Shown one piece after another: positions 17,514-54,152 of a stretch of DNA of 64,000 nt (its first letter is position 1; each line of letters opens with the position of its first letter). The position numbers and the translations under genes are program-made. The DNA is taken from the NCBI GenBank assembly GCA_016184005.1, contig JACPDL010000002.1, positions 1-64,000 on the forward strand, read 5' to 3'. Source of the DNA: Candidatus Aenigmatarchaeota archaeon. GTDB taxonomy: Archaea > Aenigmatarchaeota > Aenigmatarchaeia > GW2011-AR5. The notes below the pieces were generated by a model. The model was not told the DNA's origin. It ran no database searches and saw only the letters and a program-made list of their open reading frames with translations.

Positions 17514-17654
17514 TTGTCACTGCCTGCTGGAATGTTGAGCTGGAAGCCTGTGAAGACATACTGGCCTGAAGGCGATGTTGTGTTAACCCCGACTGTTCCT
17601 AGTGATGTGTCGCCTGAATTGAATGTGCCGCTTAGATCAGTGTCGTTGAATAAT
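17514..17654. repeat. exact 141-bp repeat, copy 2
   Basis: identical to 15619-15759; the ORF breaks at the right-hand end of both copies. Confidence 0.92.
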
Positions 17655-35931: not shown

Positions 35932-37215
35932 CTAGAACGTAGGCGTGTTGCCTTCAACGCCCTTCACTGTTATTGTTGTTTCTTTGTCGACGTTGTAAAG
36001 GTAGTAAAGGTCGAATGTCATCAGTATTTCGCCGAAAGGCCTGCTTGTCCAGGCCTGCCTGTCTATGGCAAGGGTGCAGCCGAAAGGCGCTTTCTTGTCA
36101 GATCTCAGGCGCAAAATTTCTGAATTGCCTCCCAGCAATAGCTGCTGGTTGCCTGTCGTAAAGACACTTGGTGTAACAAATACAGGTGATGCTATCTGAC
36201 CTCTGTTCAATGCAGCCGAGACACCGTTTCCTAGACAATCATCAAACTGTACTCCAGATCCGGAAAGTGTTACTGCGCCAAGAACAAATCCGCCCTGCTT
36301 TCCTGTCTGACCAGGTGCTCCTGTAAATTCTGCAGGGGTTGGTATGCCGTTGCCAACATTTTGCAGCTCTATAATATATGTGGCTCTCTCTATCGGATTC
36401 TGGCTTATTGCAACAGGATCTGTATTAACAATAATAGGGCTTGTTGCCCTTGTTACTGCTACTTTGATAGGAGCACCTCCAAGCGGGTGTTCTACTTTAA
36501 AAGTAGCGTCAACAGGTTTGCCCAAGTTTATCCTTGACTCGTATTCGTTCTTAGTCATGACAGGAATCGTTATTGACGCTGTTGTTTTGTAAACATAAGT
36601 TACCCTAACTGCAGGATGAAATTCTGTCCTTAGCCCTTCAGGCAGGACCGGAGGTACAAGCGTCCAGTCTGCCGTGAATGATTGTCCTGGCCTGTTTCTC
36701 TCCTTGTCTGGTGGTGCTAGTTCTTCCTGGAATTTGAAGACTTGTTGCAATTTCGCATCGTTCTTGAAAAGGTTCTTGTTGCATATTGCTTCTTTGCTGA
36801 GATCTGAGAATATGTTACCTATGAATCCTGAAAGTGATAATCCTCCAGCTCCTTTAGCTACGGAAACGCAGAAGTTCTTTCCTATGCACAGGTTGCCGAA
36901 GAACGAGCCCGAAGAAGAGAAGCCGATTGCATTGAAGTCAGATATGCCTTGCAATGAAAGTGTATCGCCCGTTGTGGTCCTCCAACTGTCAACATTTAGC
37001 AACTGTGCACGCACGCACGAAGCGGTTGTGCCTCCTACATTCTGAATATCAGCAAAGAATGAGACGAGGTCTGTTTGTTCTACGATGGCTCTGTCTGCTG
37101 AAAATTCATTGATCTTTAATCCGTTGTTGGGATCTATGGTTGTTGTGCCACCCACGCATGCAGATACAAATACCATGGCGAGCAATGAAAGCAGCAAAGG
37201 GGCAAATTTCTTCAT
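35932..37215 (-). CDS. lipoprotein, KNEF/NTDP paralog family
   Basis: VSACVGG lipobox; VTYVYKTTASITIPVMTKNEYESR, IIVNTDP, WTSRPFGEILMTFDLYYLY. Confidence 0.75.
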   Translation of the reverse strand: MKKFAPLLLSLLAMVFVSACVGGTTTIDPNNGLKINEFSADRAIVEQTDLVSFFADIQNVGGTTASCVRAQLLNVDSWRTTTGDTLSLQGISDFNAIGFSSSGSFFGNLCIGKNFCVSVAKGAGGLSLSGFIGNIFSDLSKEAICNKNLFKNDAKLQQVFKFQEELAPPDKERNRPGQSFTADWTLVPPVLPEGLRTEFHPAVRVTYVYKTTASITIPVMTKNEYESRINLGKPVDATFKVEHPLGGAPIKVAVTRATSPIIVNTDPVAISQNPIERATYIIELQNVGNGIPTPAEFTGAPGQTGKQGGFVLGAVTLSGSGVQFDDCLGNGVSAALNRGQIASPVFVTPSVFTTGNQQLLLGGNSEILRLRSDKKAPFGCTLAIDRQAWTSRPFGEILMTFDLYYLYNVDKETTITVKGVEGNTPTF

Positions 37216-37267
37216 TTTGAATGCACTTGGATAAATTAAGTCTTTGGCGATATAAATAGTTTAACTT

Positions 37268-38302
37268 CTATGCTCGTAACCCTTTAACCGATACTTTAGT
37301 TTCTTTTTCTATGAAATAAAGATAGCTCAAATCAAAAGTTATGGTTACTGTGCCAAAAGGTCTTGAAATCCATTGGTTTCTTGCAAGTCCTAATGTACAG
37401 GAAAAGGTTGCTGATTCACCATTCCTAAGAACTACGCCATTGTCGTTTTCAGGAAGAGTGATCACATAAGAGGACGATTCATAAGTTTGCTGGGAAGGTC
37501 TTTGTAATAACGGTTGTTCTAGTGCAGTTCCTGTATTAATGCAGTCCACGGGTGTTATGCCGCCTGAAAACCTGACAGTGCCTTTCACAAGGCCGTTGAT
37601 ATTGTTGGTAAAGGGGATGCCGTCTCCGGTGTTTCTGAGAGTAATAGTATAGACAGCCGTTTCTTTGTCGTTGAGTCTTGTAATGTCTGGATCCGTGTTA
37701 ACAACAATCTGCGACGGGCCTGAGATCAAGACCTTTATGGGCCCGTTAGTGCTAGTTGCTTCCAAGGATTTCAGGTCCTGCGATTGCCTGAATTCATTTT
37801 TTGTATATATCGGTATATTTAGTGCAGCGGATGTGGAATATTCATAAGTTGCGCGGCCAAGCAAGCGGAAATCCTTTATAATACCTTCAGGAATAAAAGG
37901 CGCCTGCAATGTCCAGCCTACAACCCGAAATTCTCCCGGCCTGTTCAGGCTGGCGTCCGGAGGCGCAAGTGTCGTGTAAAAGTAAGGGGTGTTGCCTGCT
38001 TTATCTACAGGGGTGAACGAAAACTCTGGCAGGGGCTGGCCAATCTTTGCGATTGCCGGCGCATTCTCACGCTGCTGCTGGTCGAAGGCTGTAGAAATAA
38101 GCTCAAGTTTTACCGACTTGGCTGTGCGGCCCCCTACATTTTCCAGTTCCATATATGCGTGAAATATATCGCCGCTGTCAACGCTGCTTGGATCTGCAAA
38201 GAATTTGTTTATCGTTATGCCATTATTTTCATCTGTGCGCAGATCCCGGGTAACGCAGCCTGCAAGAAACACCATTAGCATTACAGTTAATAGAATTCTC
38301 AT
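37268..38302 (-). CDS. lipoprotein, KNEF/NTDP paralog family
   Basis: AGCVTRD lipobox; ATYEYSTSAALNIPIYTKNEFRQ, IVVNTDP, WISRPFGTVTITFDLSYLY. Confidence 0.75.
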   Translation of the reverse strand: MRILLTVMLMVFLAGCVTRDLRTDENNGITINKFFADPSSVDSGDIFHAYMELENVGGRTAKSVKLELISTAFDQQQRENAPAIAKIGQPLPEFSFTPVDKAGNTPYFYTTLAPPDASLNRPGEFRVVGWTLQAPFIPEGIIKDFRLLGRATYEYSTSAALNIPIYTKNEFRQSQDLKSLEATSTNGPIKVLISGPSQIVVNTDPDITRLNDKETAVYTITLRNTGDGIPFTNNINGLVKGTVRFSGGITPVDCINTGTALEQPLLQRPSQQTYESSSYVITLPENDNGVVLRNGESATFSCTLGLARNQWISRPFGTVTITFDLSYLYFIEKETKVSVKGLRA

Positions 38303-39267
38303 TTGACCACCTTTAGCTGGGACTGTGCCCGCACTTCGTAATTATATAGAAGCGGCACTAAAACCTGATAGTCAACGAGCTGTTGCGCATTCTCAGGCAA
38401 TTTAAGCTCGCATGCTATGCGGGGAAAAACTTTTCCTGAGGGATATATTGTCTTGAAGTCCCTGCAACAAAGGATGTCGCTGCAGTAAGTCTCTTCAGAA
38501 CCGGTTTTCTGGAATATCTCAGACTGCTTTTGCAATAGAGCCAAGAGCAGGTCTGTTGCCTGAAGCGCATTCTTGAATTCCCCGAAACGGAGATTCTTTT
38601 GTTCGATAGGCATGAAATTTTCGCCGAATGTTATCTTGTCAACAAAGCCGTTGCCGATATTTCTTATGGTGAAGTAAACAAAATACTGCCTGCCTTTTCT
38701 CGCAACTATCGGCATGTCGTCGCTGAATTCTATATCCATCTGCATGTTCCTGTCCCTGTACGTGTACACGCGCGGCCTCGTGTTTATGTTTCCTGCAAGC
38801 TTTTCACGCGTGTATATTTCTTCATTCATTATATCCAGCGTCTGCACTGCTGTAAGCACGCTCTGGAACTTCGCGCGGGCATTAATTGTTTCGCTTTGCG
38901 TTTTCTGGATAATTGGCATAGCCTGGACGGTGCAGCTCAAGGCCGTTATCTGGTCGGGCAGCAATTGCGGTATTGAGAGCTTGCATTCGTTGCTTTTCCG
39001 GAGATTGCCCGTATCGAAAATTTCGAGAATGATATTTCTTATCGGCGCAACATCTTTATTCTGGGCGTCGAGATATAGTGTTGTTTTGCTGCCTGCAAAA
39101 ATTTCAGAAGGCGAAGATGACAAAGAAACTCCAAGGCCTTCCTGCACCCGTATTGGCTGCTGCCCCTGCAATGCGCCAATCGGGTTGAAACCAGGGCTGA
39201 AAGGATTGAGCTGGCTCACGCATGCGGACAAAAAAACAACTGAGAGCAGCAAAAAAATATATTTCAT
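38299..39267 (-). CDS. lipoprotein, divergent member of the same family
   Basis: LSACVSQ lipobox; overlaps the downstream gene by 4 nt; NEEIYTRE, NIGNGFVDKI. Confidence 0.7.
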   Translation of the reverse strand: MKYIFLLLSVVFLSACVSQLNPFSPGFNPIGALQGQQPIRVQEGLGVSLSSSPSEIFAGSKTTLYLDAQNKDVAPIRNIILEIFDTGNLRKSNECKLSIPQLLPDQITALSCTVQAMPIIQKTQSETINARAKFQSVLTAVQTLDIMNEEIYTREKLAGNINTRPRVYTYRDRNMQMDIEFSDDMPIVARKGRQYFVYFTIRNIGNGFVDKITFGENFMPIEQKNLRFGEFKNALQATDLLLALLQKQSEIFQKTGSEETYCSDILCCRDFKTIYPSGKVFPRIACELKLPENAQQLVDYQVLVPLLYNYEVRAQSQLKVVK

Positions 39268-39280
39268 TTAAGCACCACGT

Positions 39281-40687
39281 TCATTTCTCGAAAGGCCTGA
39301 TGGTGATCGGGAATGAGCTGCGCAGCTCATAGTCATAATCGACGTACGCATTTATCAAATACGTCTTGAAAGGCTCAGAAATATCAACGATCCTGCTTAT
39401 CTGGAAGCGCAATGTCGTTCTTGTCTCATCGCGGAAAAGCTGTATGGGCTTCACGTTGGTGCATTTCACTTTGTTTGTTTCTACTCTGCATTCAAATCGC
39501 GGCCCTTCTGTAGATGCTGATTGCGACTGTACTGGCAAATCAACTGCGAATGGGTTAATAATTTCTGTCTGTTGAGATCGACTTTGCTCACAAGTGCCTT
39601 GCGAAGGAAAAGAAGATACAATTATATCTGAACCAAGGCATGATTGTACTGGATCTTTTGGTTCATTGCAATAATAGTAAACTCCTGCTTCACCAGTTGA
39701 TTTACACAAAAACCATTCAATAGTTCCTTCTATATTATTTTCTGTTGCCCTGCCTGTTACGAGGTTGCCTCTTACTGCAAAAGCCATGCCGACACCGAAT
39801 ATAGGCACATCGTCATATCTGCCTTGTATCTGGAATTCTTTGCCGTCAACAATTAACTTCGAGTTTCCTGCAAACAACTCAAGCGGGAATTCTATGACAA
39901 GCTTGCGCGTTTCTATCTGTGAACCAACTATGTTGCCTTTGCCTTTGTTTTTCACGTTGAATATGAATGTGCCCGAGAAGCCTGAGAGCAGGTAAGGCGT
40001 TCCGAAGAGCTGCACGTCAATCTGCACGGGCCCTGAGCCATGGGTTACTTGCTCCGTAAGGCCGATAGAGCGCCCCTGCCTCTGGCTAATCTCTATTTCC
40101 TTCTGGTTGACAACAGGAATCGTGTAAAGCAGGTTGCCCTTGAATTTGTAGGTTGCTTTGTAGCTCAATTCCGTATCTGTTTTTATGCGCGCTATCTCGC
40201 TCTCTGTGGGCGCAAGCAGCTGGAAGTTTATGGACCGCTGCTCGCCCGGGAATATTTCACAAGGCCTGCTTTTGCGGCATATGTCAGGCTGGCACTTGCT
40301 GCCCTGATTACACAGCGGCGATTTTGGCCCCAGATCCTGGTCATATGCCTTGAACAATGGCGCATTGAAGAGTTCTACGTACACGCTTCTGGCTGATTCT
40401 GCCTTGTCCACGTTTTCCAGAATAAAAGTGAACAGCACCGGCTGGTCAGGAAGCGCGGGCGATCTGGGTATGCTGGTTGCATCCTTTATCAGAACCACGT
40501 CCTTCAGGCCTTCTTCGCTGATTTTCCTGCTGATGCTCAGCACGTCTCCGCCGAAGATGCCTGACAACTCGACGCATCCAGAAACGAGGAGTATTGCGAT
40601 TATAGACAGCGACACGTACTTCATCCGATCACTGATAATAAATTGCCAGCGGCCAGATATAAACGTTAAGAATGTTAAATTCAACAC
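39281..40687 (-). CDS. lipoprotein, same family (start probably MKYVSLSIIAI, about 40624)
   Basis: LVSGCVEL lipobox; ATYKFKGNLLYTIPVVNQKEIEI, VKNKGKGNIVGSQ. Confidence 0.7.
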   Translation of the reverse strand: MLNLTFLTFISGRWQFIISDRMKYVSLSIIAILLVSGCVELSGIFGGDVLSISRKISEEGLKDVVLIKDATSIPRSPALPDQPVLFTFILENVDKAESARSVYVELFNAPLFKAYDQDLGPKSPLCNQGSKCQPDICRKSRPCEIFPGEQRSINFQLLAPTESEIARIKTDTELSYKATYKFKGNLLYTIPVVNQKEIEISQRQGRSIGLTEQVTHGSGPVQIDVQLFGTPYLLSGFSGTFIFNVKNKGKGNIVGSQIETRKLVIEFPLELFAGNSKLIVDGKEFQIQGRYDDVPIFGVGMAFAVRGNLVTGRATENNIEGTIEWFLCKSTGEAGVYYYCNEPKDPVQSCLGSDIIVSSFPSQGTCEQSRSQQTEIINPFAVDLPVQSQSASTEGPRFECRVETNKVKCTNVKPIQLFRDETRTTLRFQISRIVDISEPFKTYLINAYVDYDYELRSSFPITIRPFEK

Positions 40688-40752
40688 CTGAAAGCAAGTT
40701 AAAAAAATAGAAAGCTTAAATATTATGTTTCGTATCTATAGATAGTGATTGT

Positions 40753-40872
40753 ATGAAAGATATGGCACAATGGAAAAATGTCAGCAAATATATAAAAGAA
40801 GCCAGGAAAGACAGGGAATTCATGAAAGACTTGAAGAAATTTATAGCGATTTCTACTGGAAAATCAAAGTAG
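40753..40872 (+). CDS. 39-aa charged micro-protein, convergent with PIN gene
   Basis: MKDMAQWKNVSKYIKEARKDREFMKDLKKFIAISTGKSK*; TATA-like GCTTAAATA upstream. Confidence 0.45.
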   Translation: MKDMAQWKNVSKYIKEARKDREFMKDLKKFIAISTGKSK

Positions 40873-41364
40873 TTTTCTTTTGAATTCACTATAGCCTATG
40901 AAGTTAGGCGTGATAAGATTGTGTTCTTTATTTACTGAATAATAAGCTTTCTTTGCTGCATTTGACAGCATTGTTCTGTTGTCATCTGAAACCACAATAT
41001 CAAGCTTGCTGATAGTTGCTTCTGCCACGATTATCATATCGTTCATTATACTTTTCCAAGAAACAGAACCACCATTTTTCCTATAATTTTTATAATAAAG
41101 AACAGCTAATGTTTGCGCAAGCGGTTTTATTTCCAATTCTCTGCCCTTAGTTAAAGCATCGTAGAGCCTAATTAATGCCAATCTTAAATCATACCTGTCT
41201 TTTGAATGTTTTGGCGCGTCTCTTATTTCCTTCCTAATTATTCTGATTCCGTAAATTGTCATATCGTGCTTATGTATATTCGCCTTCTCTACTAGATTAT
41301 CTTCGATACGATCTTCTATTATCTTTCCATATATGCTTGTATCAAGAATAATTCTCAATGTCAT
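40864..41364 (-). CDS. PIN-domain protein
   Basis: RIILDTSIYGKIIED...MNDMIIVAEATISKLDIVVSDD. Confidence 0.7.
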   Translation of the reverse strand: MTLRIILDTSIYGKIIEDRIEDNLVEKANIHKHDMTIYGIRIIRKEIRDAPKHSKDRYDLRLALIRLYDALTKGRELEIKPLAQTLAVLYYKNYRKNGGSVSWKSIMNDMIIVAEATISKLDIVVSDDNRTMLSNAAKKAYYSVNKEHNLITPNFIGYSEFKRKLL

Positions 41365-41447
41365 ACATTTAATTACTGATTATTCTAATTTATTCTTTAG
41401 GGTACGGCAACATAGAGAATATAAAGATTCTATAAAGAACTGATAGC

Positions 41448-42311
41448 ATGGTGGAGTTTTTCCAGGCCTACTTTCTGGATCCTATAAGATTCAATACGGG
41501 CTACAACATTGTCAATACGGCTGCTTACGCGATTATTTTCGTCGCCCTTGTTTTCGTTACATACAGGCTGCTGAAGCTGCTCAAGATAAAGGTCGACAAG
41601 AACTTCTTCATTGCAATCGCGCCGTACATAGCGCTGGGAAGCATACTGCGCGCATGGGAGGACCTGATAGAAACCACGCAGGCAATACCGGAGATATTTT
41701 CCCGCTTCGTGCTGATCGATGCCTATGGAACAGCCAGAAACCTGCTTCTGATAACGCCGCTGATATACATATTCATGTTTGTTTTGGCGCTATCGGCGCT
41801 GCTTCTTTCAAAATTGCTGGAGAGGCGTGCAAAAATACCTTACCACAAGACATGGCTTGCGATCGGCGCTGTGATGTGCCTGCTTGGCGCAAGCCAGCTG
41901 CAGCTGAACAATGCGTTTGCACTATTTGCGATGCTGGGCATATTTGGCGTCTGGGCGCTTGTGATCGCAGGCTCGCGAGTTGCCTTCAGTGAATTTGCAG
42001 TGGTCAAGAAAACGCTGACGAAGGAGAATACGCTGCTGATACTTGTTCATATGTTCGACGCAACAACAACGTTTGTCGCGCTGCAGTTCTTCCCTTATTT
42101 CGAGCAGCACGTGCTTGCAGGCTTTTTTATCAGCATACTGGGCCCAATCGGGATATACGCCCTGAAGCTGCCTGTCGTAACGGCTGTCCTGCACTATATT
42201 GACAAAGAGCTTCCCGAAGGGGAGAAAAGAAACTTCATAAAGATAGCGATACTGATCCTGGGCTTGGGCCCCGGACTGAGAAATTTCCTGCGGCTGGTCA
42301 TGGGCGTATAG
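41448..42311 (+). CDS. DUF63-family membrane protein
   Basis: FLDPIRFNTGYNIVNTAAYAI, YIALGSILRAWEDL, LVHMFDATTTFVALQFFPYFEQHVLAGF. Confidence 0.82.
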   Translation: MVEFFQAYFLDPIRFNTGYNIVNTAAYAIIFVALVFVTYRLLKLLKIKVDKNFFIAIAPYIALGSILRAWEDLIETTQAIPEIFSRFVLIDAYGTARNLLLITPLIYIFMFVLALSALLLSKLLERRAKIPYHKTWLAIGAVMCLLGASQLQLNNAFALFAMLGIFGVWALVIAGSRVAFSEFAVVKKTLTKENTLLILVHMFDATTTFVALQFFPYFEQHVLAGFFISILGPIGIYALKLPVVTAVLHYIDKELPEGEKRNFIKIAILILGLGPGLRNFLRLVMGV

Positions 42312-42339
42312 CTTATAAGCTTGCCTGCAAACTATTTTT

Positions 42340-43500
42340 ATGCAGCAGAGCCAGAATGAGCATTGGCGCGGGCGCGTTAAGCCCGGACCTTCCTTCTTCA
42401 GCAAGATGCTCCCTTATGCCGCAGGTGCAGCGATTGGCGCAACACTTACAGCTGCTCTCCTGTGGGGTACGTACAACGCAGGCAGGACAAAGGGCTATTC
42501 TTATGCACTGGATAGCCAGCAACAGGCCACGCAACAGGAAAATGTGCAGCAGAAAAAAGAGCAGCAAGGCATTCGGCAACAGACTTATACTCAATCACCA
42601 ACCACGGCAGCAAAGGAAATTTATGCAAAGATGACAATTGATGAGATGAAAAGCTATCCTATAGCTGACGACTGGAAGCCTGTGTCTGGTGTGCACATAA
42701 AAATGCCAACCGGCGAAACAGTTGTTATTAGTACTAGAAGTAAGAGAGAAACTGCTGATAAATCTTATGGAACTGTAATGTATCTTTTTGATAAAAACGG
42801 AAAAATTGATTACGACCAAGCAAGAACAGTAGGCACTGTTTCTGATAATGCAAGGCAATGGGTACATTATCTTTACGAAGGTAGACCGGAAGATTTTCAC
42901 AGGAAAGTGATCGAATTTGCAGGCGATGGAACCATTGCTAACCTTGCTATCTATAAAACGCTTGCAGATCTGGAAAATAGGGCTGTAGCGCAGGCTGTTG
43001 CGTCTGTAGAACTAGCAAAATTTATACAAAATCCTGTACCGTACCTTGGAATCAAATTTGTGCAGGAATTTGCAAGGGAGTGGGAAAAAGAAAAATATAA
43101 TGGAATAACGTCAGATAATAAGGGAAACCACTGGCTGGATATCGGGGGTGGCAACCAGCGCGCTTTTGCAACGCGTGAAGAAGCCTTGGCGTACAAGCAA
43201 GAATTGAAAGCGCGCGAAAACGCGCCTACTCCTATTTACACATTCACAGAGCGCAAGAGTTATCCGGGTGGGGAAAGCGAGAAAAGGACAACCGTAATAG
43301 GTCCTCCGAAGACACCAGCTCAATGGGAAACGGAAAGAAGTGTTCAGCAGGATCCCATAGCAAGAAGAGCCGAAGATGCTTACCACAAGGCAGGAGCCCT
43401 CAAGGGAGATGTGGAAAGGGCAACGGGCGAAGCCGTGAGGGGCCTGCAGGAAAGCTTGGGTAAGATTTTCCGGCCGCCGGAAGGCCAAAGGCGCAGATGA
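42340..43500 (+). CDS. membrane-anchored hypothetical protein
   Basis: MLPYAAGAAIGATLTAALLWG anchor. Confidence 0.6.
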   Translation: MQQSQNEHWRGRVKPGPSFFSKMLPYAAGAAIGATLTAALLWGTYNAGRTKGYSYALDSQQQATQQENVQQKKEQQGIRQQTYTQSPTTAAKEIYAKMTIDEMKSYPIADDWKPVSGVHIKMPTGETVVISTRSKRETADKSYGTVMYLFDKNGKIDYDQARTVGTVSDNARQWVHYLYEGRPEDFHRKVIEFAGDGTIANLAIYKTLADLENRAVAQAVASVELAKFIQNPVPYLGIKFVQEFAREWEKEKYNGITSDNKGNHWLDIGGGNQRAFATREEALAYKQELKARENAPTPIYTFTERKSYPGGESEKRTTVIGPPKTPAQWETERSVQQDPIARRAEDAYHKAGALKGDVERATGEAVRGLQESLGKIFRPPEGQRRR

Positions 43501-43630
43501 AATACATGCTGAGGGGCAGAGAAGCACAAGGGAAGAATCAAGGTCTAAGCCACCGGATTGGGGAAAAGTTATCGGCGATGTTTTTAAAGAAAAAATGATT
43601 TTATAGCTTATTCTTTTTATGAATGCTTGG

Positions 43631-44623
43631 TTATTTCGTTTCTTCAAATTTTTTCTTTTCGAGATACTGTATATGTTTTATTGCTTCTCTTCTCGAGTCG
43701 AAACCTCTATAAACCGCATTGTCAAAAGCGACACTATAACCTTTTCCAGCATCGTAGCCGATAAGATGATCATCTTTTAGCCTCATGTGATGTATAAGTC
43801 TTTCTGCAAATTCTGCTCGAAGATATCTATTCAAGGAGGATGGGTTCACTAGCATTTGATCAACAAATGTCCTCTGTTCCATTCCGAACAATTCCCTGTA
43901 AAGAGATTCAGCATTAGGCGATTCTACAAGCAATTCGTTAAGAGCGATGCCAAATGCAAGTAAGTCAGAATTATGCTGTAACTGTCTTATTGTGCGGGAA
44001 TCGCCGTGTGAAATGGCCGGAACCAGTTTGGTCTTTATATCTTCAATAACTTTAAGCGGTGAATCGCGGTAATAATCTTTAGTATCAGTGTCGAAATATG
44101 TTTCTGGGATTTTTTGTAGTCGTAACGATAATACAGCTATTGATCTTGTCGGCCCTGTGGGGTTACCTTCTGGAGTAAGGCCCCTTCCATTTTTTACTAT
44201 TATTTCTTTTACACCATCGCCGTCCACATCATTAAAATAAAAATCGTTACCTTCTACATATCCAATTACAACATTTCCGGGTTCGTTGCCAAAGCTCCTT
44301 TTTAAGATTTGCATCTTTTTCTTGCTGCCATCTGAATAAATTGCAGCTATAACATCTCTATCGAAGGTCGTTTCGTATGCACAAAGATCTTTCGCGTCCA
44401 CGGCTACGTATGTATGTTTTTCTTTTTCCGTTGGCTTTAGATGAGGATAATCGTTTCTGCAAATTGAACTTGAAACATGGCCTGTATCATAACCCTTGTT
44501 GGGTTTATCAACAGAAACAGTCGTGACGGCTTTTTCTTTCTCTGCCTTATTTGAATCGTAGCAGCCCCATGCAAGAGCTGTGCCTATCATCAAACCAACA
44601 ACATATCTGCGGAAAGCGGACAT
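43631..44623 (-). CDS. membrane-anchored hypothetical protein
   Basis: RRYVVGLMIGTALAWGCYDSN anchor; YFNDVDGDGVKEIIVKNG. Confidence 0.6.
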   Translation of the reverse strand: MSAFRRYVVGLMIGTALAWGCYDSNKAEKEKAVTTVSVDKPNKGYDTGHVSSSICRNDYPHLKPTEKEKHTYVAVDAKDLCAYETTFDRDVIAAIYSDGSKKKMQILKRSFGNEPGNVVIGYVEGNDFYFNDVDGDGVKEIIVKNGRGLTPEGNPTGPTRSIAVLSLRLQKIPETYFDTDTKDYYRDSPLKVIEDIKTKLVPAISHGDSRTIRQLQHNSDLLAFGIALNELLVESPNAESLYRELFGMEQRTFVDQMLVNPSSLNRYLRAEFAERLIHHMRLKDDHLIGYDAGKGYSVAFDNAVYRGFDSRREAIKHIQYLEKKKFEETK

Positions 44624-44660
44624 AAATACAATTTCAAAGAAAAGGGTTTAAAATACATTC

Positions 44661-45839
44661 TTATGGTGTTTTTATTAGCTTTCTGCAAATTTTGCCGTTT
44701 GACCTAGATTCAGTTTCTTTACTAAAAGGCAACCTCCATAAGCGGATATTGTCACTCCCACCGGAAAGGGCGTATAATCCGTCAGGAGAAAATGCTATAC
44801 TGTAGACATGCGAAGCAAGCGAGTGTGAAAATTGAATTGTTTCCTTGCCGCTTTCAACATCCCAGAGACGGATAGTCATATATCCAGCAGAAATCGCATA
44901 GCAGTCATCAGGTGAAAAAGCAACACTGTAAATATTAGAATTGTGCCTAAGGCGGTGGACTTCTTCTCCGGTCGCCAGATCCCACAGGCGGGCTACTTCA
45001 TCCGAACCTCCTGAAAGGCCGTACTTTTCATCATGGGAGAAAGCAACGCTAAAAACACTATCCCAATGCCTGAATCTGCGCAATGCTTTTCCGGTTTTGA
45101 CATCCCAATGGTAAACAAATCTGTCGCTGCTGCCAGAAAGCGCTGTTTTTCCATCAGGCGCGAATGCTACTGTGTTAACTTCTTCCTCACCATGCCCAAT
45201 AAATGGCTGAATCTCTTTCCCGGTTGCTGCGTCCCACAAGCTAAGTTTTCCACTTGAACCGCCTGTAAGAACGTGCCGGTTGTCATGCGATAGTGCACCT
45301 GTTTCTCCTCTAAAGCGGCGGATTTCTTCCTTGCTCTTGACGTCCCATAAACGGACAGTCCCATCTTGACTACCTGATATAACAAACTTACCGTCTTTTG
45401 AAAACGCCAAGGTTGTAACTGGGGTTCTTTTTGTATAATTGTGACCGACAAAGCGGTCAATTTCTTTCCAAGTTTCTATATCTCGCAAGTAGATGTCACC
45501 CTGGCTTGCAAAAATGGCATAGTTACCGTCTGGTGAAATTGCCACACTTAAACTTCCTAATCCTTCTTCAAAACGGCGCATCTCGCCCACTTTGATCCTG
45601 GGCTGATAAGATGACTCATCTTTGGTTTTCTCTTCTATCTGAGGCTTTTTCTGCAATTGATAAGCGGGCTGTTTAACAGTTTCTTGTTTCTTGAATGGAT
45701 AAATATTTTTTTGTGAAACTAATGATTGCGGCGGCTGCGAGGAAGTGCTTTGTTTTGTTGGTATGCTGTTGTAACCCAACACCACAGCTGCGCCTACAGC
45801 CATACCGGCAAGATAAGGAAGTACCCGCCTGAACTGCAT
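44661..45839 (-). CDS. membrane-anchored WD40 beta-propeller protein
   Basis: RRVLPYLAGMAVGAAVVLGYNS anchor; repeated SVAFSPDGxYALSGGSDxxxRLWD. Confidence 0.85.
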   Translation of the reverse strand: MQFRRVLPYLAGMAVGAAVVLGYNSIPTKQSTSSQPPQSLVSQKNIYPFKKQETVKQPAYQLQKKPQIEEKTKDESSYQPRIKVGEMRRFEEGLGSLSVAISPDGNYAIFASQGDIYLRDIETWKEIDRFVGHNYTKRTPVTTLAFSKDGKFVISGSQDGTVRLWDVKSKEEIRRFRGETGALSHDNRHVLTGGSSGKLSLWDAATGKEIQPFIGHGEEEVNTVAFAPDGKTALSGSSDRFVYHWDVKTGKALRRFRHWDSVFSVAFSHDEKYGLSGGSDEVARLWDLATGEEVHRLRHNSNIYSVAFSPDDCYAISAGYMTIRLWDVESGKETIQFSHSLASHVYSIAFSPDGLYALSGGSDNIRLWRLPFSKETESRSNGKICRKLIKTP

Positions 45840-45922
45840 ACAATAGCTCTGCAGATAACATTCTTATGCTTACCCGTTTGGCTTTCAAGCACCGTTAAGC
45901 TTTAAAACCTTTCCATATTATG

Positions 45923-45936
45923 TCACTTATAAGTGA
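45923..45936. promoter_or_regulatory. perfect palindrome TCACTTATAAGTGA about 20 bp after a TATA-like box
   Basis: TTTAAAA at about 45900, palindrome, then ATG at 45942. Confidence 0.45.
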
Positions 45937-47297
45937 TAAAAATGGGAATCAGAGCAAGGCCTGGGAGCCGCGATCCGGAATCGCAGGCGAGAGAAGTTTA
46001 CTTCGGAAAAGGAGAATCCGGACGAGCCGAGCTTATTCTAGAAATGGCAGGCTACGATGGACAAAGAATAACCACATTACTTCAGAAATGGTATAGAGAA
46101 GAGGCTGAAAAATCTTCGGCAGAAAGGCCCATATTAGGCGGCTCCAACGGCGGAAAAAATAATGGACCGGATGAGGGGGATCGGCCTGGAAGCCGGGCAC
46201 TGAAACGTATCCGTGATGCGCTTTTCTTTGGTATAACAGATTCCTTGCCGCCATTGGGAGTAAGCTGGCCACGGAAGCTGTCCCCGCGAATCAATCTGCT
46301 GCCGACAAAAGCCCAACTTAAATCATATCGAAAAGCAAGAAAAGCGCACGCAAAAGGCAACATTCTGGAAGCCGATCAAATACTATCTGAAGGCGGCTAT
46401 TGTATTACAACATCGGATGAATTATTTGAATCATGGAGCAGATGGAATCAGAAAAGGCCTGTAACAGAAAGAACAGGATTGGCAGCATACGAAAAAGAAC
46501 TAACAGATGAAACAGAATCAGGGCCGGAAGTTAGAGCCGATAGGCGTTTCAGGTATGTTACTCGATTAATAGGTTCTGGCTTATTGGTTGCTGGAGCTCT
46601 AATTGCTGCAGGTTCAATAAGTTATCAATATGTTATTGAGCCATACTTCAGCCAGCAAGTTTCAGTGCAAAGGCCAGCACAAACTGCACAGCAAAAACCT
46701 GAAGCAAAACCAGCTGCGCCGAAAAGAGAACCGGGTGCGTCCGCTGCGCCTGCACAGCAAAAACCGGGTTTTCATGGTCCTATTGCCCCGCCAGCAGCAC
46801 AGCCCGGAACAACTGAACCACCTAGAGCAAGGGTGCAAGAACCTGCAGCGCCGGTATCTGCGCCGGAAAGGCCGCCAACACCTGCGCAGGGAGCAACTCA
46901 GCCTGCGCCGTCACAGAAAGTATTTTTTTATAGAGATGAATATGGAGCAAGAAGGGAACTTCCTGTTTACGGTTCAAGATGGACTATTGATAAAGTAAGT
47001 GCAGGCAACGAAGGGGAAAATCGTGCTTGGTTGTTACTGGAAACGTTTTACGATGTGAATCGTGATGGCTATAGTGATAATTTTGAACCACAATTGCCGA
47101 TAGAGTTGGAACGTTATTCACAGCAAGAAGCTGAAGAAATGAGAGATAAGATAGGCCAGTGCAAAGGCCAGAATGAAGCAGTATATGTCATGCTTGGCAG
47201 ATCTGTTTATCCTCAAACAGACAGAAACCACAACGTCTTGGGAATAAAGGTTCCCAGAGAATATGTGAAATTTCTTTCGCGGGGCTGTTTGGATTAA
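45933..47297 (+). CDS. membrane protein with two copies of a GY/W repeat and a Pro/Ala/Gln linker (ATG probably 45942)
   Basis: QAREVYFGKGESGRAELILEMAGYDGQRITTLLQKWYREE; RKARKAHAKGNILEADQILSEGGY; one TM. Confidence 0.65.
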   Translation: MIKMGIRARPGSRDPESQAREVYFGKGESGRAELILEMAGYDGQRITTLLQKWYREEAEKSSAERPILGGSNGGKNNGPDEGDRPGSRALKRIRDALFFGITDSLPPLGVSWPRKLSPRINLLPTKAQLKSYRKARKAHAKGNILEADQILSEGGYCITTSDELFESWSRWNQKRPVTERTGLAAYEKELTDETESGPEVRADRRFRYVTRLIGSGLLVAGALIAAGSISYQYVIEPYFSQQVSVQRPAQTAQQKPEAKPAAPKREPGASAAPAQQKPGFHGPIAPPAAQPGTTEPPRARVQEPAAPVSAPERPPTPAQGATQPAPSQKVFFYRDEYGARRELPVYGSRWTIDKVSAGNEGENRAWLLLETFYDVNRDGYSDNFEPQLPIELERYSQQEAEEMRDKIGQCKGQNEAVYVMLGRSVYPQTDRNHNVLGIKVPREYVKFLSRGCLD

Positions 47298-47306
47298 AGG
47301 CAATTC

Positions 47307-48056
47307 TTATGCTTCCGTTCTTTCTGTACCGTAAAGTTCACTTAGCAACCGGGCTACTCTTTCCTGTCTTGCTTGTTTGTCTTTTTCTATCTCATGGCGG
47401 TAAGCTTCGACTGCAAAACCTACATTATCGAAATAAAACGGGGCTGCTCCTTCAGGCAAAACAGCCTCTACGGCTGCATGCATAACTAATTTGGCAGTTC
47501 CAGAAACTGATTCTTTCAAACGGGCGGACAATGGCTTGTCTTCCAGAAAGACATCAAACCAGTAATGCTTCAGGTAGCCGCTTCTGGCGCCTGTATAGAG
47601 CATCAAGCCGAGATCGACAGGATCGAGGTTTTGCTTTGTTACCCATTTAAACGGCCTCATAACCCATGATCCTGCTATCCATCTTACAGTATTCTTGTAA
47701 AAAGGGAAGAATTCCGCCAGATCGGCGGCTAACATAGCATCTGTATAAAGCTCATCGCGCTCGATCAGGCGATTAAGCTCGTTATCAGGAAAATCTGCAC
47801 CGAAAGAGATGTCAGCATAGGCGTGAAAAATGACTTTTTTTGCTGCCCTGTACGCCTTTACAACATCCCCCTTAAGGAGTTCGTCTTTCGCATAGTTCAT
47901 GCCTGCAAGATAGCGAACTTTTTCTTCAGGATTGATGCTTGTGCTCCGAACATAATTGATAAGGCTGTCAGTTATCTGCGCTGCTTTGGATATCATTCCC
48001 TTTCGCGTAGAGGCATAGCTGGCTAGTCTGGTTAGTACGGTTCCAAAGGGGGGCAT
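47307..48056 (-). CDS. hypothetical protein
   Basis: ORF in coding-dense block. Confidence 0.55.
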   Translation of the reverse strand: MPPFGTVLTRLASYASTRKGMISKAAQITDSLINYVRSTSINPEEKVRYLAGMNYAKDELLKGDVVKAYRAAKKVIFHAYADISFGADFPDNELNRLIERDELYTDAMLAADLAEFFPFYKNTVRWIAGSWVMRPFKWVTKQNLDPVDLGLMLYTGARSGYLKHYWFDVFLEDKPLSARLKESVSGTAKLVMHAAVEAVLPEGAAPFYFDNVGFAVEAYRHEIEKDKQARQERVARLLSELYGTERTEA

Positions 48057-48151
48057 TCTTACACCTGATATTTTTGTTCAAAGTCAATTCGCTTTAATAT
48101 GTTACTACTCGATAGTAAGATTTAAAAGCTTTTGCATTGTAATGTCTATGC

Positions 48152-49171
48152 ATGGCAAACGGCGATCAGGCATGGCATGAACAGCCAGAAGAGCCAGAAC
48201 AACATGGACAGCAAGCGGCTCCAGCAGGGCCTGGACAGCAAGCGGCTCCAGCAGGGCCTGAACAAGATAGAGAAGAACCGATAGGCAGACGTCTGGGCAG
48301 ATGGGCCTCTTATGGGCTTTATGGCCTTGGCGGCGCTGTTACAGGACTGTCTGCTTTTGATTATGCAATTACTAACTGGCGAGTAGACTCGCTGCCTCAT
48401 CTTGTCGGCAATGTAGCTTTAGGTACTGGTTTCTATTTGATTGGTCGTGGTGTGTCTAATCTTAGTCAAGAAGAAGAACCTCGAATAAGAGAAGAAGACG
48501 CACTAAGACGATTCGTTGAAGAAATTGAACACGGTCCGGTAGAACTTCCAGATGGCAGGAGAATTGTTATTCAACAGCCAGAAGGGCCTGCAAATCAAGA
48601 ACAGGAAAACAGGGGTGTCATTAGAAGAACATGGGACAGGACTGCCGATGGTTATAGAAGGTTATCTTCAAGAGGGGCAACAGGATATTTTGCACTTGGG
48701 TTTGCTGCATGGCTTGCAGCAGCAGGTGCTTACACTGCTATAAAGCCGTGGAAGTATGTTCGCGATGAGGCTGCTCCTGCTGCAGTTTCGTATACAAAAG
48801 AGGAAGCAATTCCCAGGGCTGCAGATTTCGGAAAGAAGATCTATTATGGTTCAACAGGATTGAAAAGACCTGACATGTGGGGAGAGTCTTGCAAGTACAT
48901 TGGCGAACCTGATGAAAATCACAAAGCTGTCATGGAAGGGCTCTTTCCTGAGACCCCCGACAGGTATGTGCCTGTTGAACTGGACTGCAGGCCGGAAAGG
49001 GTTTTTGCAGGGCTCGAATATCCAGACCCGGCGAAACAAGGTACAGCTTACGCAAACTTCGCGAAAGGAGCAATTTCAGAGGTCAATCTTTCTGATTCCA
49101 GGCCGGGCGTTCATACTCTTGGCGGCAAAAGATACATCTGGTCACCAGTCAACTTTCATAGGGAGAAATAA
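48152..49171 (+). CDS. membrane protein with 9-aa tandem repeat
   Basis: QQAAPAGPGQQAAPAGPEQ; two TM segments. Confidence 0.6.
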   Translation: MANGDQAWHEQPEEPEQHGQQAAPAGPGQQAAPAGPEQDREEPIGRRLGRWASYGLYGLGGAVTGLSAFDYAITNWRVDSLPHLVGNVALGTGFYLIGRGVSNLSQEEEPRIREEDALRRFVEEIEHGPVELPDGRRIVIQQPEGPANQEQENRGVIRRTWDRTADGYRRLSSRGATGYFALGFAAWLAAAGAYTAIKPWKYVRDEAAPAAVSYTKEEAIPRAADFGKKIYYGSTGLKRPDMWGESCKYIGEPDENHKAVMEGLFPETPDRYVPVELDCRPERVFAGLEYPDPAKQGTAYANFAKGAISEVNLSDSRPGVHTLGGKRYIWSPVNFHREK

Positions 49172-49173
49172 TC

Positions 49174-49770
49174 ATGGCAGAAACTGATAGAAGAGGGATT
49201 ATAAGGAGAATAGGAAGGGGTATTGTAAAATACGGCATATTGGCCGGAGCACTTGCAGGAGCAGTCTATCTTGCAGGCGGCAAGCAAGGTATGGCACACG
49301 GCTTTTACAGGGCTCGGGATTACGTTGCTGAAAAAACAAGCGAACCCATGACCACGCATGACAGGCAGTTCAGAATAACGAAGTATGCAATAGATAAACA
49401 GGATCCAACTAAACTCGCTTTGTTGACGGATTTCAAAGGTGACCCACTAAAACCTCTTAGCTACGGCAGGCCTGTAAGATTTACAGTTGAAGATGATTCA
49501 GAATCCATAAAGCGCCTCAAAAGAGATATAGAAGATGGTTTGAATCAGGGATATGCAGTTTTCATTAGCAGAGGCTCGCCTACACGACAACAAGGTCTGC
49601 AGGGCAAAGATGTTGCAGTAGATAAATATAATGGCGAAGAGCAATGGTTTGTAAAAGGCGCAGACCTCGTGAAGCTTCACAAATACGACATAACAACAGA
49701 CGTGCCTGAAGAACCAAAAGAAAAGCCGTTCAGACCTGTTAGAGCAAATAATCTGCAAACGCGGCCATGA
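49174..49770 (+). CDS. membrane-anchored hypothetical protein
   Basis: GILAGALAGAVYLAGGK anchor; starts directly after the previous gene. Confidence 0.6.
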   Translation: MAETDRRGIIRRIGRGIVKYGILAGALAGAVYLAGGKQGMAHGFYRARDYVAEKTSEPMTTHDRQFRITKYAIDKQDPTKLALLTDFKGDPLKPLSYGRPVRFTVEDDSESIKRLKRDIEDGLNQGYAVFISRGSPTRQQGLQGKDVAVDKYNGEEQWFVKGADLVKLHKYDITTDVPEEPKEKPFRPVRANNLQTRP

Positions 49771-49775
49771 TAATT

Positions 49776-52700
49776 TTATTTATTCTTTAATTCGTTATAT
49801 TTGTTTCTGCAATGCTCATTTGCATAAGCGGCGCCTAGTTTATCATCATCCAAGCAGCATAAGTTGAATCCGAGTTCTGGATCTCTACATTCAAGAGGTA
49901 TTCTTTCAGTATTTTCTATACTTCCTCCATACGCAGGGTTGCATTCGCTTGTGCTCTTGCAGGCACCTTCTCCTATTGTGCATGTTCCTCGGGCTAAAAG
50001 CTTGTTCGAGCAGTAATCAGGCCCGCCGAAAGAAGTTGTTGCGGCTTGCTGGGCCTGTTGTGCTTGGTTGAAGCACGATACCCACTTAGGATACCATTTG
50101 TCGAGCACTGCAGTAGTGTAACCTGCGTTTTTTTCTTTACAAGAGGTTCCTCCGTTATAGCCGCCGATGCCTTCTGTAATGCCACCGCATCTTTCTATTT
50201 CATTAGTAAGATGTATGGCTCCTGCTTTAATGGCTTTTTCTGGCAGGAATCTTTCATCGCTTGATTTCGAGCATGCAGTAGGCGTGCAGCTGTTGCAGGC
50301 AGAAACTTTGATCTGACACAAATCTATGTTGCACTCCTCGAAATTATAGACAGGCACACTTAAACCAAGGCTTCTTGCTGTTTTTGGAATAAATTGCACA
50401 ATGCCTGCAGAGCCACAAGGACTTACAGCATCCTTGTTCCATTCTGATTCTTGTGAAATAAGCGCAGCGAGCAGGGCTTCAGCATTATAGCCGCGTGAGG
50501 ATGCTGCTGTCTTTAATCCACTACTATCAACAGCACTTGTTATTACATCTTTGTACTGGTTATATTTGTTAATGTAATCGTTTGATAGTCCTGAAACACT
50601 ACAAGTTATAGCTCCAGTTGGTGTCGTGCCAGGTGTTGTTGTCTTTGCTACGCATCTGCCGTCGTATGATCGATCCTTAACTGTAGTTTGCAGATCAGTT
50701 CCTGGAATGCCTACAGGTGTTGTTTTATCAGAAGGTATCCACGTGCAACCAAGGCTGCATCTTTGCGAAGCTTCTGTTTCGCAATCGTATTTTTGCGTGA
50801 ATGTGCTGCAGGACTTTTCGAAGCAGGCGCGGCACAAGCCTGTATCAGCTATAATGCCTGAACCCGGCGGTCTTTGAGATGTGTCAAGCCAGCATTGGCC
50901 AGATTGTGGTTTTGTGCTGTAGCATGTGCTTCTTGTGCACGAACTTAATATTCCTATTTGTGTGCCGCATTGGCTGCATTTTGTATCGCTTGGATTGGCA
51001 GCGATGCCAATGAAACCCGTTATTGGCACGGACTGCTCCTTGATGATCCTGAATTCATATGTTGGCAGCTCGGCTGTTATCAATCCAGTCTGCACGCCTG
51101 TAGCTGCTAAACTGCTGTCAGGAACGGGCTGGAAGCTGCACAATACTGAAAATATGCTGCTGAGCGCATACTGCCTTATCTCCTGGTTGTTCTGCATGAC
51201 GTATACCAATGCCTCTTCGCGCGAGGGGTCGAAATCGACATTAATTTGATTGGGCATAGGTATTTTGCCTGGATTCTGCAGTTTTATGCCGCCAGCACCA
51301 CAATCTAAGCCTCTGCCGATTACTTTCTGCATCCGGATTATGATCACATCCTTTAGCTGGCGAAGGAATATTCTTCCGTCGTCGCGCGCATTTGAAACAG
51401 AGACAAGCAGCAGGGCGCGCTTGCCGGATTCCAGAGGCTGCGGGCCGACATTCAGTGACAGCTGCGCCGGAGATACCTTGCCCACTGCAACAACCTGGCG
51501 AAACACGTCTTCTTTTTCTGCGAAGCGCCTTTGGAATTCATTCTTGCTCATCACTGAAACAAGCAGTGAGGAGTTGGTCGAGTACTCGTAGCTCAGGTTT
51601 ATGTAAACAACGCCAAGCCTTGACTCAGCTTGTCTGTCTTTCTCGTACTTTGCCCTGAGACCGCGAATCTCAATTCTTCCCGCTTCGCCCGGCATGAGGT
51701 AAGCTTCGCCGTTTCTTTTATCTAGTGAAGTTATTTGGGCTTTTTTGCCGTCAGTGAATTCGCAGTATGAATTACATTTTACATTTTCGATGTCATTTTC
51801 GTCTGCAATTTTTATGTTGCGGGCAGGCAAGTCGCCGTCATTCTTGACAACCAAGAACATAGCGAACTCAGCGCCTTGCGGCACGGCCTGCGGCAGCAGG
51901 TTTATGCTTGTTATTTCCAGCGCGCGCGGTATAGCCATCGGCCTTTCGGGCCGCACATTGGTTGTCTGCTGCTTTGCGTACCAGGCAGTAGGATTGGTAA
52001 CCAGCAGCGATATGTCGCTCACCGCATTCGTTCCGGCGCGCCATGCAACAAGCACGGGCGTGCGGACCTGATTAATTGCTCCCTCGTACATGGCCTTGTA
52101 GGGCCCCAGCGCCACCCAGCCGAAGATCAGAACTATTACAGACATTTTCAGAACTATTGGAAAGCCGCCTGTCTGGTAGAACTGGAAGATGCCGAAGAAT
52201 ATGAACAGGAAAGCAAACAGCATGTAGTAATAGAATGTATCAAGATACAGCCCTGGCTGGCCGATCAATGCGAAAAGGAATATCGTGATACCCTGGGCTA
52301 TCAATGCCCCGGAAACCATGCTATCCAGGTGATCCAACGCATACTTGTTCGACTCGAAATTCATGACCCAGTTTATTGCGGCGCCTGCAAGCGGAATTAT
52401 GTAAAGGAACAAACTGGCGTTCAGTGCATATGTTGGTATTATGAAGAATGAAATGAATCCGGCCATCACGACAAATGTCATGATCAATCCGAGAATCATC
52501 GGCCCCCATATGAAATCCCAGATGTTGTAGAGCATCTGATACCAAATATTGCGCAGCGTACTACTTTTCATTGATAATCGTGTCATCGCACCTGCAATGC
52601 CACGCAATCGGGCTCTACCAGTGCGTGCATATTGTTCAGCAAAAGCTGCCGCTTCTCCTTTAAGTTCAGCTTTTATGTATTCTTGTGCTTCTGTGAAGTC

Positions 52701-54152
52701 TCGTCCTATCTTATATCTGTAAATTTGTTTTGCCGCTATCTGTTCTGCCGCTGGCTCAAGTCTTTTTTGTATAGTATCTCTCAAAGATTCCAATTCAGAT
52801 GTCAAAAGCTTGTTCATTTGTGCTTCTGCATTCGAAAATCTCTCAAAAGTTTCGCGCAATTCACTTTTTTCACTATCACGCCTGTATTTCCCTAGCACAT
52901 CCTCTAGAAGTTGGTTTGTGCCACCCATTCCAAGAGGCATTTTAAAGCCCCGGCGTATTGTGTAACGGAAAAATCTTCCATAAGCAGAAATGCTTTTTAA
53001 CGCCTTTTTTTTTGCTGCAAAATAATCTTTCCTTGTGGCTACTAGCCTTTCCTTTGCTGCCTTTATTCTGTCTTGATATTCGTTAAGCAAACCTTCTGCG
53101 TAGAGTCGTCCAATACTATTCAGTTCAGCTTTACCCCTATTCACGGCCATCGTAACCCGAGGTAGATTCTTTTGGCCTAATCTTCCTGCTGCTTTTAGCT
53201 CCATTCTTCCTGCGCCGAAAGTAGAGCTTTTTTTTGGCATCCATCCAGGCGTTAAACTGGAACGTGGTTTTAGAAATTCTGCCTCACTTGTAGTTTCTTC
53301 AAAAACTGCTACTGCTCTCGTACTAACTTCAATATCAAATTCGTAAATTGTGTTAGGAGTATCATCAAATTTTTCATTGCCTGCAAAAAACACCCATGCT
53401 TTGAATTTATAGAATTTGTTTCCGTCGCGATGTTTTTCTGGAGCTTCTAATTTAATTGGAGATCCAAGATCGAATCGCTCTCTATAGGAAGTTTCTTTTT
53501 CTGCATCATTTATTTTAAACTTAATCTTTTGCGGCGGATATGAAACAACTGTCAAAATAGGTCTGCTAGGATCATTCGCACTGCCACCGCCTATTGGTGT
53601 AGCCATTCTATCTGGCGGAGATCTTCTTCTTTCTCTTTCCTGATGCCAATTGTACATTCCACGCTCGATTTGCTGTTCTGAATAACCGGCGTTTCGCAAA
53701 ATTTTCACAGCTTCACCATCATTTCCTTGAGCATATGCTTGTCTTGCTTGTTCTACAGGATTAGTTTCAGGAGTTGGTTCAGGTGAAGCAGCATTAGCAT
53801 CACGAGGTCTTCTTGGCGGTGGCAAGTCGTCTATAGCTAATTGTTGCAGTCCTTCCATTAGTATTTTGGGTCTGGATCTGAGCCAGTCTCTTATTGGCTG
53901 TCGTTGGATTTCTGGTGGCAGTAAATTAACTCTAAAACGCGGATTAGGTTTACGAGATAATTTTGCCTCTTCAATTTCCTTGGCTCTCGCGAATGATATT
54001 GGTTCTCCGGTTTTTTTTCTTGCTTCCGATCTCCAGTCTTTCCAAATACTAGCTATATCTTGGTCTGGATAACCTAATCTTTTCAATATTATTCCGGACT
54101 CTGTTTGATCTCCATTCATGAAAGCATCTTTCGCTTCTAGAAAACTAGTCAC
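49776..54152 (-). CDS. 1458-aa protein: GY/W repeats, polytopic TM core, lipoprotein-like domain, C-terminal lytic transglycosylase (SLT) domain
   Basis: EQARQAYAQGNDGEAVKILRNAGY; TM block; LSYEYSTNSSLLVSVMSKNEFQRR; LLAALISQESEWNKDAVSPCGSAGIVQFIPKTARSLGL...GGYNGG. Confidence 0.8.
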   Translation of the reverse strand: MTSFLEAKDAFMNGDQTESGIILKRLGYPDQDIASIWKDWRSEARKKTGEPISFARAKEIEEAKLSRKPNPRFRVNLLPPEIQRQPIRDWLRSRPKILMEGLQQLAIDDLPPPRRPRDANAASPEPTPETNPVEQARQAYAQGNDGEAVKILRNAGYSEQQIERGMYNWHQERERRRSPPDRMATPIGGGSANDPSRPILTVVSYPPQKIKFKINDAEKETSYRERFDLGSPIKLEAPEKHRDGNKFYKFKAWVFFAGNEKFDDTPNTIYEFDIEVSTRAVAVFEETTSEAEFLKPRSSLTPGWMPKKSSTFGAGRMELKAAGRLGQKNLPRVTMAVNRGKAELNSIGRLYAEGLLNEYQDRIKAAKERLVATRKDYFAAKKKALKSISAYGRFFRYTIRRGFKMPLGMGGTNQLLEDVLGKYRRDSEKSELRETFERFSNAEAQMNKLLTSELESLRDTIQKRLEPAAEQIAAKQIYRYKIGRDFTEAQEYIKAELKGEAAAFAEQYARTGRARLRGIAGAMTRLSMKSSTLRNIWYQMLYNIWDFIWGPMILGLIMTFVVMAGFISFFIIPTYALNASLFLYIIPLAGAAINWVMNFESNKYALDHLDSMVSGALIAQGITIFLFALIGQPGLYLDTFYYYMLFAFLFIFFGIFQFYQTGGFPIVLKMSVIVLIFGWVALGPYKAMYEGAINQVRTPVLVAWRAGTNAVSDISLLVTNPTAWYAKQQTTNVRPERPMAIPRALEITSINLLPQAVPQGAEFAMFLVVKNDGDLPARNIKIADENDIENVKCNSYCEFTDGKKAQITSLDKRNGEAYLMPGEAGRIEIRGLRAKYEKDRQAESRLGVVYINLSYEYSTNSSLLVSVMSKNEFQRRFAEKEDVFRQVVAVGKVSPAQLSLNVGPQPLESGKRALLLVSVSNARDDGRIFLRQLKDVIIIRMQKVIGRGLDCGAGGIKLQNPGKIPMPNQINVDFDPSREEALVYVMQNNQEIRQYALSSIFSVLCSFQPVPDSSLAATGVQTGLITAELPTYEFRIIKEQSVPITGFIGIAANPSDTKCSQCGTQIGILSSCTRSTCYSTKPQSGQCWLDTSQRPPGSGIIADTGLCRACFEKSCSTFTQKYDCETEASQRCSLGCTWIPSDKTTPVGIPGTDLQTTVKDRSYDGRCVAKTTTPGTTPTGAITCSVSGLSNDYINKYNQYKDVITSAVDSSGLKTAASSRGYNAEALLAALISQESEWNKDAVSPCGSAGIVQFIPKTARSLGLSVPVYNFEECNIDLCQIKVSACNSCTPTACSKSSDERFLPEKAIKAGAIHLTNEIERCGGITEGIGGYNGGTSCKEKNAGYTTAVLDKWYPKWVSCFNQAQQAQQAATTSFGGPDYCSNKLLARGTCTIGEGACKSTSECNPAYGGSIENTERIPLECRDPELGFNLCCLDDDKLGAAYANEHCRNKYNELKNK

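Follow-up and report, generated by a model that had tools for sequence, protein, structure and literature searches.

The first 64,000 nucleotides of contig JACPDL010000002.1 of a Candidatus Aenigmatarchaeota archaeon (assembly GCA_016184005.1), hereafter the window, carry a gene cluster built around four lipoproteins (A to D) and a large membrane protein that we call the hub. We consider it slightly more probable than not (roughly 0.55) that this cluster encodes an envelope complex common to the class Aenigmatarchaeia, which in this lineage displays a swappable peptidoglycan-hydrolase domain, the head, for contact with bacterial cells. The source is a 919-kb metagenome-assembled genome (MAG) in five contigs. 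Profile searches covered 156 genomes of the class, the phylum-wide search consisting of the same 156; families within the class, genera, genomes and surveyed loci are labeled f, g, G and L, respectively. Relatives that carry a name and have hub cores 31% to 94% identical are, with few exceptions, Candidatus Aenigmatarchaeota MAGs, GW2011_AR5 among them. The five central genes are the following:

35932..37215, reverse strand: lipoprotein A, 427 aa, two immunoglobulin-like (Ig-like) domains, lipobox VSAC with Cys20; homologous to B, C, D and the hub
37268..38302, reverse strand: lipoprotein B, 344 aa, two Ig-like domains (AlphaFold2 model), lipobox LAGC with Cys16
38299..39267, reverse strand: lipoprotein C, 322 aa, a divergent copy (hhalign), lipobox LSAC with Cys16
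39281..40687, reverse strand: lipoprotein D, 468 aa as listed (hhalign), lipobox VSGC with Cys38
49776..54152, reverse strand: hub membrane protein, 1458 aa

A preliminary description of the region had singled out five open reading frames (ORFs) between 35932 and 54152 as carrying paralogous extracytoplasmic domains. All five are present, and each contains the motif quoted for it. The four tandem copies do have lipoboxes, each at the cysteine of an N-terminal hydrophobic segment, and this cysteine is invariant in all 16 aligned homologues of A and B. The true start of lipoprotein D is probably not the listed GTG but an ATG 21 codons further downstream, 17 residues before the lipobox cysteine. 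In single-sequence comparisons, A and B are clear paralogues (E 4e-49), A matches D at 2e-6, and both A and B match the hub at about 5e-4, with C giving weak scores (z 1.3 to 4.7 versus shuffles). Profiles were then made for each family from orthologue alignments taken from the relatives' neighborhoods and compared by hhalign. Among A, B, C and D, every pairing reaches a probability of 99.5% to 100% across both domains (99.5% to 99.7% for C versus A, B and D, and likewise for D versus A, B and C), and the hub ectodomain matches A, B, C and D at 97.7%, 97.9%, 94.9% and 98.1%, respectively. Three unrelated families encoded in these loci (DUF63, coiled-coil and TM-Ig) served as negative controls and gave 0.1% to 7.5%. 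With every control below 8%, the profile comparison bears out the five-way paralogy: judged by it, the four lipoproteins and the extracytoplasmic part of the hub are full-length homologues, each with the same pair of Ig-like domains. Scans of Pfam, NCBIfam and PHROG matched no family to lipoproteins A to D.

The hub is composed of six successive regions:

52548..54152, reverse strand: N-terminal region, residues 1-535 (hydropathy, charge count)
51993..52502, reverse strand: membrane block, residues about 551-720, with five predicted transmembrane (TM) segments
50967..51950, reverse strand: Ig-like pair, residues about 735-1062, homologous to the lipoproteins (hhalign, AlphaFold2)
50583..50981, reverse strand: Cys-rich linker, residues about 1058-1190 (sequence)
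50109..50507, reverse strand: SLT head (GH23-type lytic transglycosylase), residues 1216-1348 (Pfam PF01464)
49779..50021, reverse strand: C-terminal Cys-rich module, residues 1378-1458 (BLAST between hubs)

Residues 1-535 are rich in Lys and Arg, contain neither a TM segment nor a signal peptide and are predicted to be cytoplasmic; this region is variable among relatives and diverges from that of the sister species (L082). As the preliminary description had it, the fifth copy of the domain follows a polytopic block: about five TM segments are predicted at residues 553-682, and the conserved motif (L/M)xTxPTxWYxxQQxxNVxPE comes after the block. The Cys-rich linker is kept in most long hubs, and the C-terminal Cys-rich module recurs in hubs bearing different heads. 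An N-in, C-out orientation of the hub is suggested by the odd number of TM segments, the basic N-terminal half lacking a signal peptide and the Cys-rich C-terminal part. A scan of IMG/VR returned no match to the hub core, which therefore gives no sign of a viral origin. In one genome the hub is encoded as two ORFs of 924 and 1034 aa that part within the TM block (L094 7589-13546 and L168 3511-9468), through either a frame break or a real fission.

The AlphaFold2 model of lipoprotein B (predicted local distance difference test, pLDDT, 80; predicted template modeling score, pTM, 0.74) shows a pair of Ig-like domains. Both finish in a strand of about 25 residues (142-167 and 316-340), and the signature noticed in the preliminary description sits on the first of these strands. 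The model of the hub (pLDDT 75) has the same two-Ig arrangement after a helical membrane block. Searches with Foldseek and VIA-align gave many tied tandem-Ig matches, with Z no higher than 10 across some 110 residues, to STT3/AglB C-terminal domains, RbmA, integrins, transglutaminase C-terminal domains and alpha-2-macroglobulin, a likeness of domain fold only, with no sequence relationship. Because the structural searches return nothing but such common folds, the fold of the Ig-like pair is generic; the sequence family is specific. None of the structural matches listed was to the hub TM bundle, which was not searched alone, and a PDB sequence search with the SLT head, hub and lipoprotein profiles gave nothing useful, only designed Ig proteins and one chance match.

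Four further genes belong to or border the cluster:

34286..35557, forward strand: PHP/EndoQ-like protein, left border, syntenic (TIGR00375 match below its cut-off)
41448..42311, forward strand: DUF63 polytopic membrane protein (Pfam DUF63, 3e-62), beside the hub and lipoproteins on the opposite strand
55377..56213, reverse strand: TM-Ig protein, 278 aa, a cluster member with syntenic homologues
56793..57233, reverse strand: coiled-coil protein, 146 aa, small and predicted to be cytoplasmic, adjoining the TM-Ig protein in family f1

The TM-Ig protein combines a single N-terminal TM segment with a beta-rich exterior, and is not homologous to the two-Ig family. A literature search on DUF63 yielded a single paper, concerned with a TrmB regulator. 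In f1, the gene order is coiled-coil, TM-Ig, hub, variable genes, DUF63 (opposite strand), D, C, B, A and the PHP/EndoQ-like gene (opposite strand), the last probably an unrelated housekeeping neighbor. A shorter version with the hub, DUF63 and two or three lipoproteins, mostly accompanied by the TM-Ig and PHP genes, is found in the distant families f2, f6, f8 and f9, and in f15 without an adjacent DUF63. Among the surveyed loci, 21 further genomes, representing six families, have the hub in one locus with at least two lipoproteins, and the hub and DUF63 occur together in 27 loci from eight families. This gene order is kept even where the hub core is only 22% to 30% identical. The hub-core profile matches 91 of the 156 genomes, some of the weak matches being the lipoproteins themselves. 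In f14 and f19 the hub often stands with DUF63 or the TM-Ig protein and the lipoproteins lie elsewhere, and a clear exception is G021 (f4), in which hub and lipoproteins are on separate contigs. The neighborhood survey called for in the preliminary description thus finds that homologues co-occur in genomes of the class, and their similarity is more than a shared generic fold. In G021, moreover, the lipoprotein paralogues number about seven, in an expanded array whose contig lacks the hub (L070 2179-16732).

The slot between DUF63 and the hub (42340-49770) holds variable genes, mostly replaced by different ones in relatives. Several of the encoded proteins have one N-terminal TM segment (386, 330, 392, 339 and 198 aa), and the 392-aa one is a WD40 beta-propeller protein (44661-45839), unusual for a small archaeal genome. 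In the same slot, a 454-aa protein (45933-47297) has a short N-terminal helical motif in common with the hub (33% over 66 residues, E 7.8e-4).

The SLT domain of the window hub, which the preliminary description did not mention, is the only enzyme family that Pfam recognizes in this protein (PF01464, E 1.6e-16, 60.4 bits versus a cut-off of 21.3), and its motifs ISQESEW (with the putative catalytic Glu1235), AGIVQF (GxxQ) and YNGG are present. SLT heads are also found on several relatives' hubs, including those of the distant family f19 (L162-L165). Other hubs bear SLT with M23 (L063/L090, L085), SLT with Amidase_2 (L074), glucosaminidase with M23 (L089) or with VanY (L094), M23 alone (L171), or divergent transglycosylase-like heads (L082, L084, L087, L098), and hydrolase heads occur in families f1, f3, f4, f6 and f19. 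Almost all of these domains belong to peptidoglycan-cleaving families, which jointly cover glycan, amide and peptide bonds. In the heads that were checked, the catalytic motifs (ES/GxxQ/YNGx; HxxxD with HLHF; SxHxxGxxxD) are intact, as are the metal-binding motifs of M23 and VanY, and the heads are predicted to be active enzymes that cleave peptidoglycan. In the class as a whole, M23 domains are present in 56 and SLT domains in 46 of the 156 genomes.

The hubs of the window and of its sister species L082 are 90% to 100% identical across nearly all of residues 300-1050, with 94% to 100% for the hub core, and this identity collapses past about residue 1150 (BLAST between hubs). The window hub has the SLT head followed by the Cys-rich module, whereas in L082 the module comes first and is followed by a different transglycosylase, closest to that of L084 from another genus (41% identity). 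As read from these alignments, heads are exchanged on a constant hub platform. A close relative of the window head (40% identity) is found in a separate predicted secreted protein of G017 (L169).

The head's substrate is probably bacterial peptidoglycan. An S-layer protein is encoded at 24136-26865 (S_layer_C, 5.6e-22), evidence for an S-layer rather than a murein envelope, and no Mur ligase was found in the window genome by a search that was positive for 12 of 14 controls, including Methanocaldococcus and Haloferax; together, these two observations suggest that the archaeon itself makes no peptidoglycan and point to a wall other than its own.

The cluster would thus correspond to one envelope complex conserved across the class. 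The hub would span the membrane, its N-terminal half on the inner side and its Ig-like pair facing outward, surrounded by three or four two-Ig lipoproteins anchored by lipid in the same membrane, and these would probably pack through the long C-terminal strands shared by each Ig-like domain, with DUF63 and the TM-Ig protein as membrane partners. In the window lineage, the Cys-rich stalk would carry the hydrolase head outward from the hub. Tethered so that its distance from the archaeal surface is fixed, the head would act on contact only, on the wall of an adjacent bacterium, and would serve either to grip the bacterium or to breach its wall locally, for episymbiosis, predation or access to nutrients. 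Swapping of heads on the constant platform, presumably tracking different bacterial walls, would arm a pre-existing core. A bolder version, in which the hub, DUF63, the TM-Ig protein and a ring of two-Ig lipoproteins form a previously undescribed contact apparatus of the whole class, whose swappable hydrolases open bacteria and make Aenigmatarchaeota epibionts or predators, is put forward only tentatively. The combination of a constant platform with exchangeable, nearly always peptidoglycan-cutting enzymes would designate bacteria as the cells contacted by this class. Moreover, the cluster provides expressible proteins to probe such contact, and a candidate role for five protein families that had none, DUF63 included.

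Several points weigh against this contact complex. The window hub has no wall-binding domain recognized by Pfam, the hub of L084 carries an esterase-type domain beside its divergent transglycosylase, and Mur-ligase-like proteins are present in 24 of the 156 genomes, two or three of them with hub heads, so that self-action is possible for some members of the class. The genome is a MAG of about 94% completeness and the surveyed relatives are likewise MAGs. Homology, gene order, lipoboxes, domain composition, intact active-site motifs and head exchange are seen in the sequences themselves; the physical complex, its orientation, the enzymatic activity, the bacterial target and the biological role are what we infer. 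In f2 and in genus g7 of f1, the hub, DUF63 and/or lipoproteins occur without a recognized head, and the hubs of f9 and f15 are short or fell outside the domain scan. Hubs L064, L069, L092 and L097 have no recognized head either. Since headless versions exist, the core must have another, ancestral function, perhaps adhesion or envelope scaffolding, to which the head is an addition.

This class-wide occurrence of core and lipoproteins, headless lineages included, would also suit a housekeeping scaffold (S-layer anchoring, a pilus base or a cell-shape complex) carrying the heads as opportunistic cargo with little bearing on function. We regard this as rather unlikely, given that five families have heads and that nearly all of these are specific for peptidoglycan. 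Part of its appeal comes from the distant family f14, where an operon for pilin, pilin, T2SSE, TadC and TadC directly adjoins DUF63 and the hub (L166 2512-8265; L172 2245-7910; L173 10631-16330; L175 2-1780, where the contig is short and covers no more than TadC, DUF63 and the hub). The arrangement is looser in one f8 genome, and the corresponding operon of the window genome, with pilin, T2SSE ATPase and TadC, is not in the cluster but elsewhere on the contig (L190). For the pilus-like option named in the preliminary description, the sole hint is this proximity in f14 and, less closely, in the f8 genome. The heads could instead bind bacterial glycan strands as lectin-like anchors without cutting them: the membrane-tethered hub, its Ig-like stalk and its Cys-rich modules suit an adhesin, and attachment is what PMC8204110 proposes for the DPANN family fam00969. 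This is unlikely, as the SLT, M23 and VanY catalytic motifs are intact where checked and binding alone poorly explains why M23 is paired with SLT or glucosaminidase, and VanY with glucosaminidase, when the partners cut different bonds.

Two other explanations are very improbable. A polytopic hub with a transglycosylase and lipoproteins recalls VirB6, VirB1 and VirB7, and the cluster might be a type IV secretion or conjugation channel in which the hub is a VirB6 fused to a VirB1 and the lipoproteins are VirB7/9-like. However, no ATPase of the VirB4, VirB11 or VirD4 type was found among the cluster genes scanned, the hub and lipoproteins have no significant match to type IV secretion parts in Pfam, NCBIfam or PHROG, the only similar hit being LvhB7 over 22 residues (E 0.13), and the fold is Ig-like, not a VirB-type match. 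The VirB/Trb reading was rejected because of these missing ATPases and family matches. A hetero-oligomeric envelope machine, as suggested in the preliminary description, thus keeps its paralogous set, membrane hub, co-conservation and plausible attachment assembly and loses secretion. Finally, and slightly less probable still, the hydrolase could remodel the archaeon's own wall polymer, for which the Mur-ligase-like enzymes of some class members speak, and the S-layer protein and the failure to find a Mur ligase in the window genome speak against it. Pseudomurein contains no muramic acid, so that SLT and amidase would not fit it.

The literature that we consulted, which is partial, describes neither this cluster nor a conserved hub with swappable heads. 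PMC11291902 describes all cultivated DPANN archaea as ectosymbionts of archaeal hosts. For large murein-like lytic transglycosylase proteins of Pacearchaeota and Woesearchaeota (fam00969), attachment to bacterial walls (PMC8204110) or a use in predation (PMC9723730) has been proposed. As far as the text consulted goes, those proteins resemble the window hub in being very large and extracellular, with an SLT/GH23-type domain and a proposed bacterial contact in DPANN, and differ by their description in that the system reported here has a conserved cluster, paralogous lipoproteins and swappable heads. Archaeal peptidoglycan hydrolases can kill bacteria, and domain shuffling, which the swapping of enzymes on a constant platform resembles, is described for archaeal and bacterial ones (PMC12352652). 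The hydrolases of that study share with ours their occurrence in archaea without peptidoglycan, domain shuffling and a patchy distribution. They were selected for a catalytic and a wall-binding domain, and some are secreted, whereas the enzyme here is fused to a conserved polytopic hub in a fixed cluster and has no recognized wall-binding domain. In PHROG, the SLT head comes closest to endolysins and to lytic tail proteins of phages (PHROG 2013, 669). Like VirB1/VirB6 and such phage tails, it would be a transglycosylase within a larger envelope-crossing assembly, but only the enzyme domain matches them, and the cluster has no ATPase or tail genes. We place the cluster, as a variant, with the DPANN surface peptidoglycan hydrolases, and there is a reasonable chance that the complex itself is categorically new. 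The Aenigmarchaeota-specific module 128, listed without a functional prediction in PMC8204110, may include these families.

Some genomes of f14 contain a separate tandem set of single-TM proteins with SLT and M23 domains (L161 7411-11389, L160 8205-12941), which in L161 lies near a TadC/T2SSE-like operon and may give the class another system for cutting walls. In the window itself, giant repetitive proteins of secreted type, with repeats of roughly 110 residues, are encoded at 14124-22997, apparently by one gene broken into three ORFs by stops or frameshifts.

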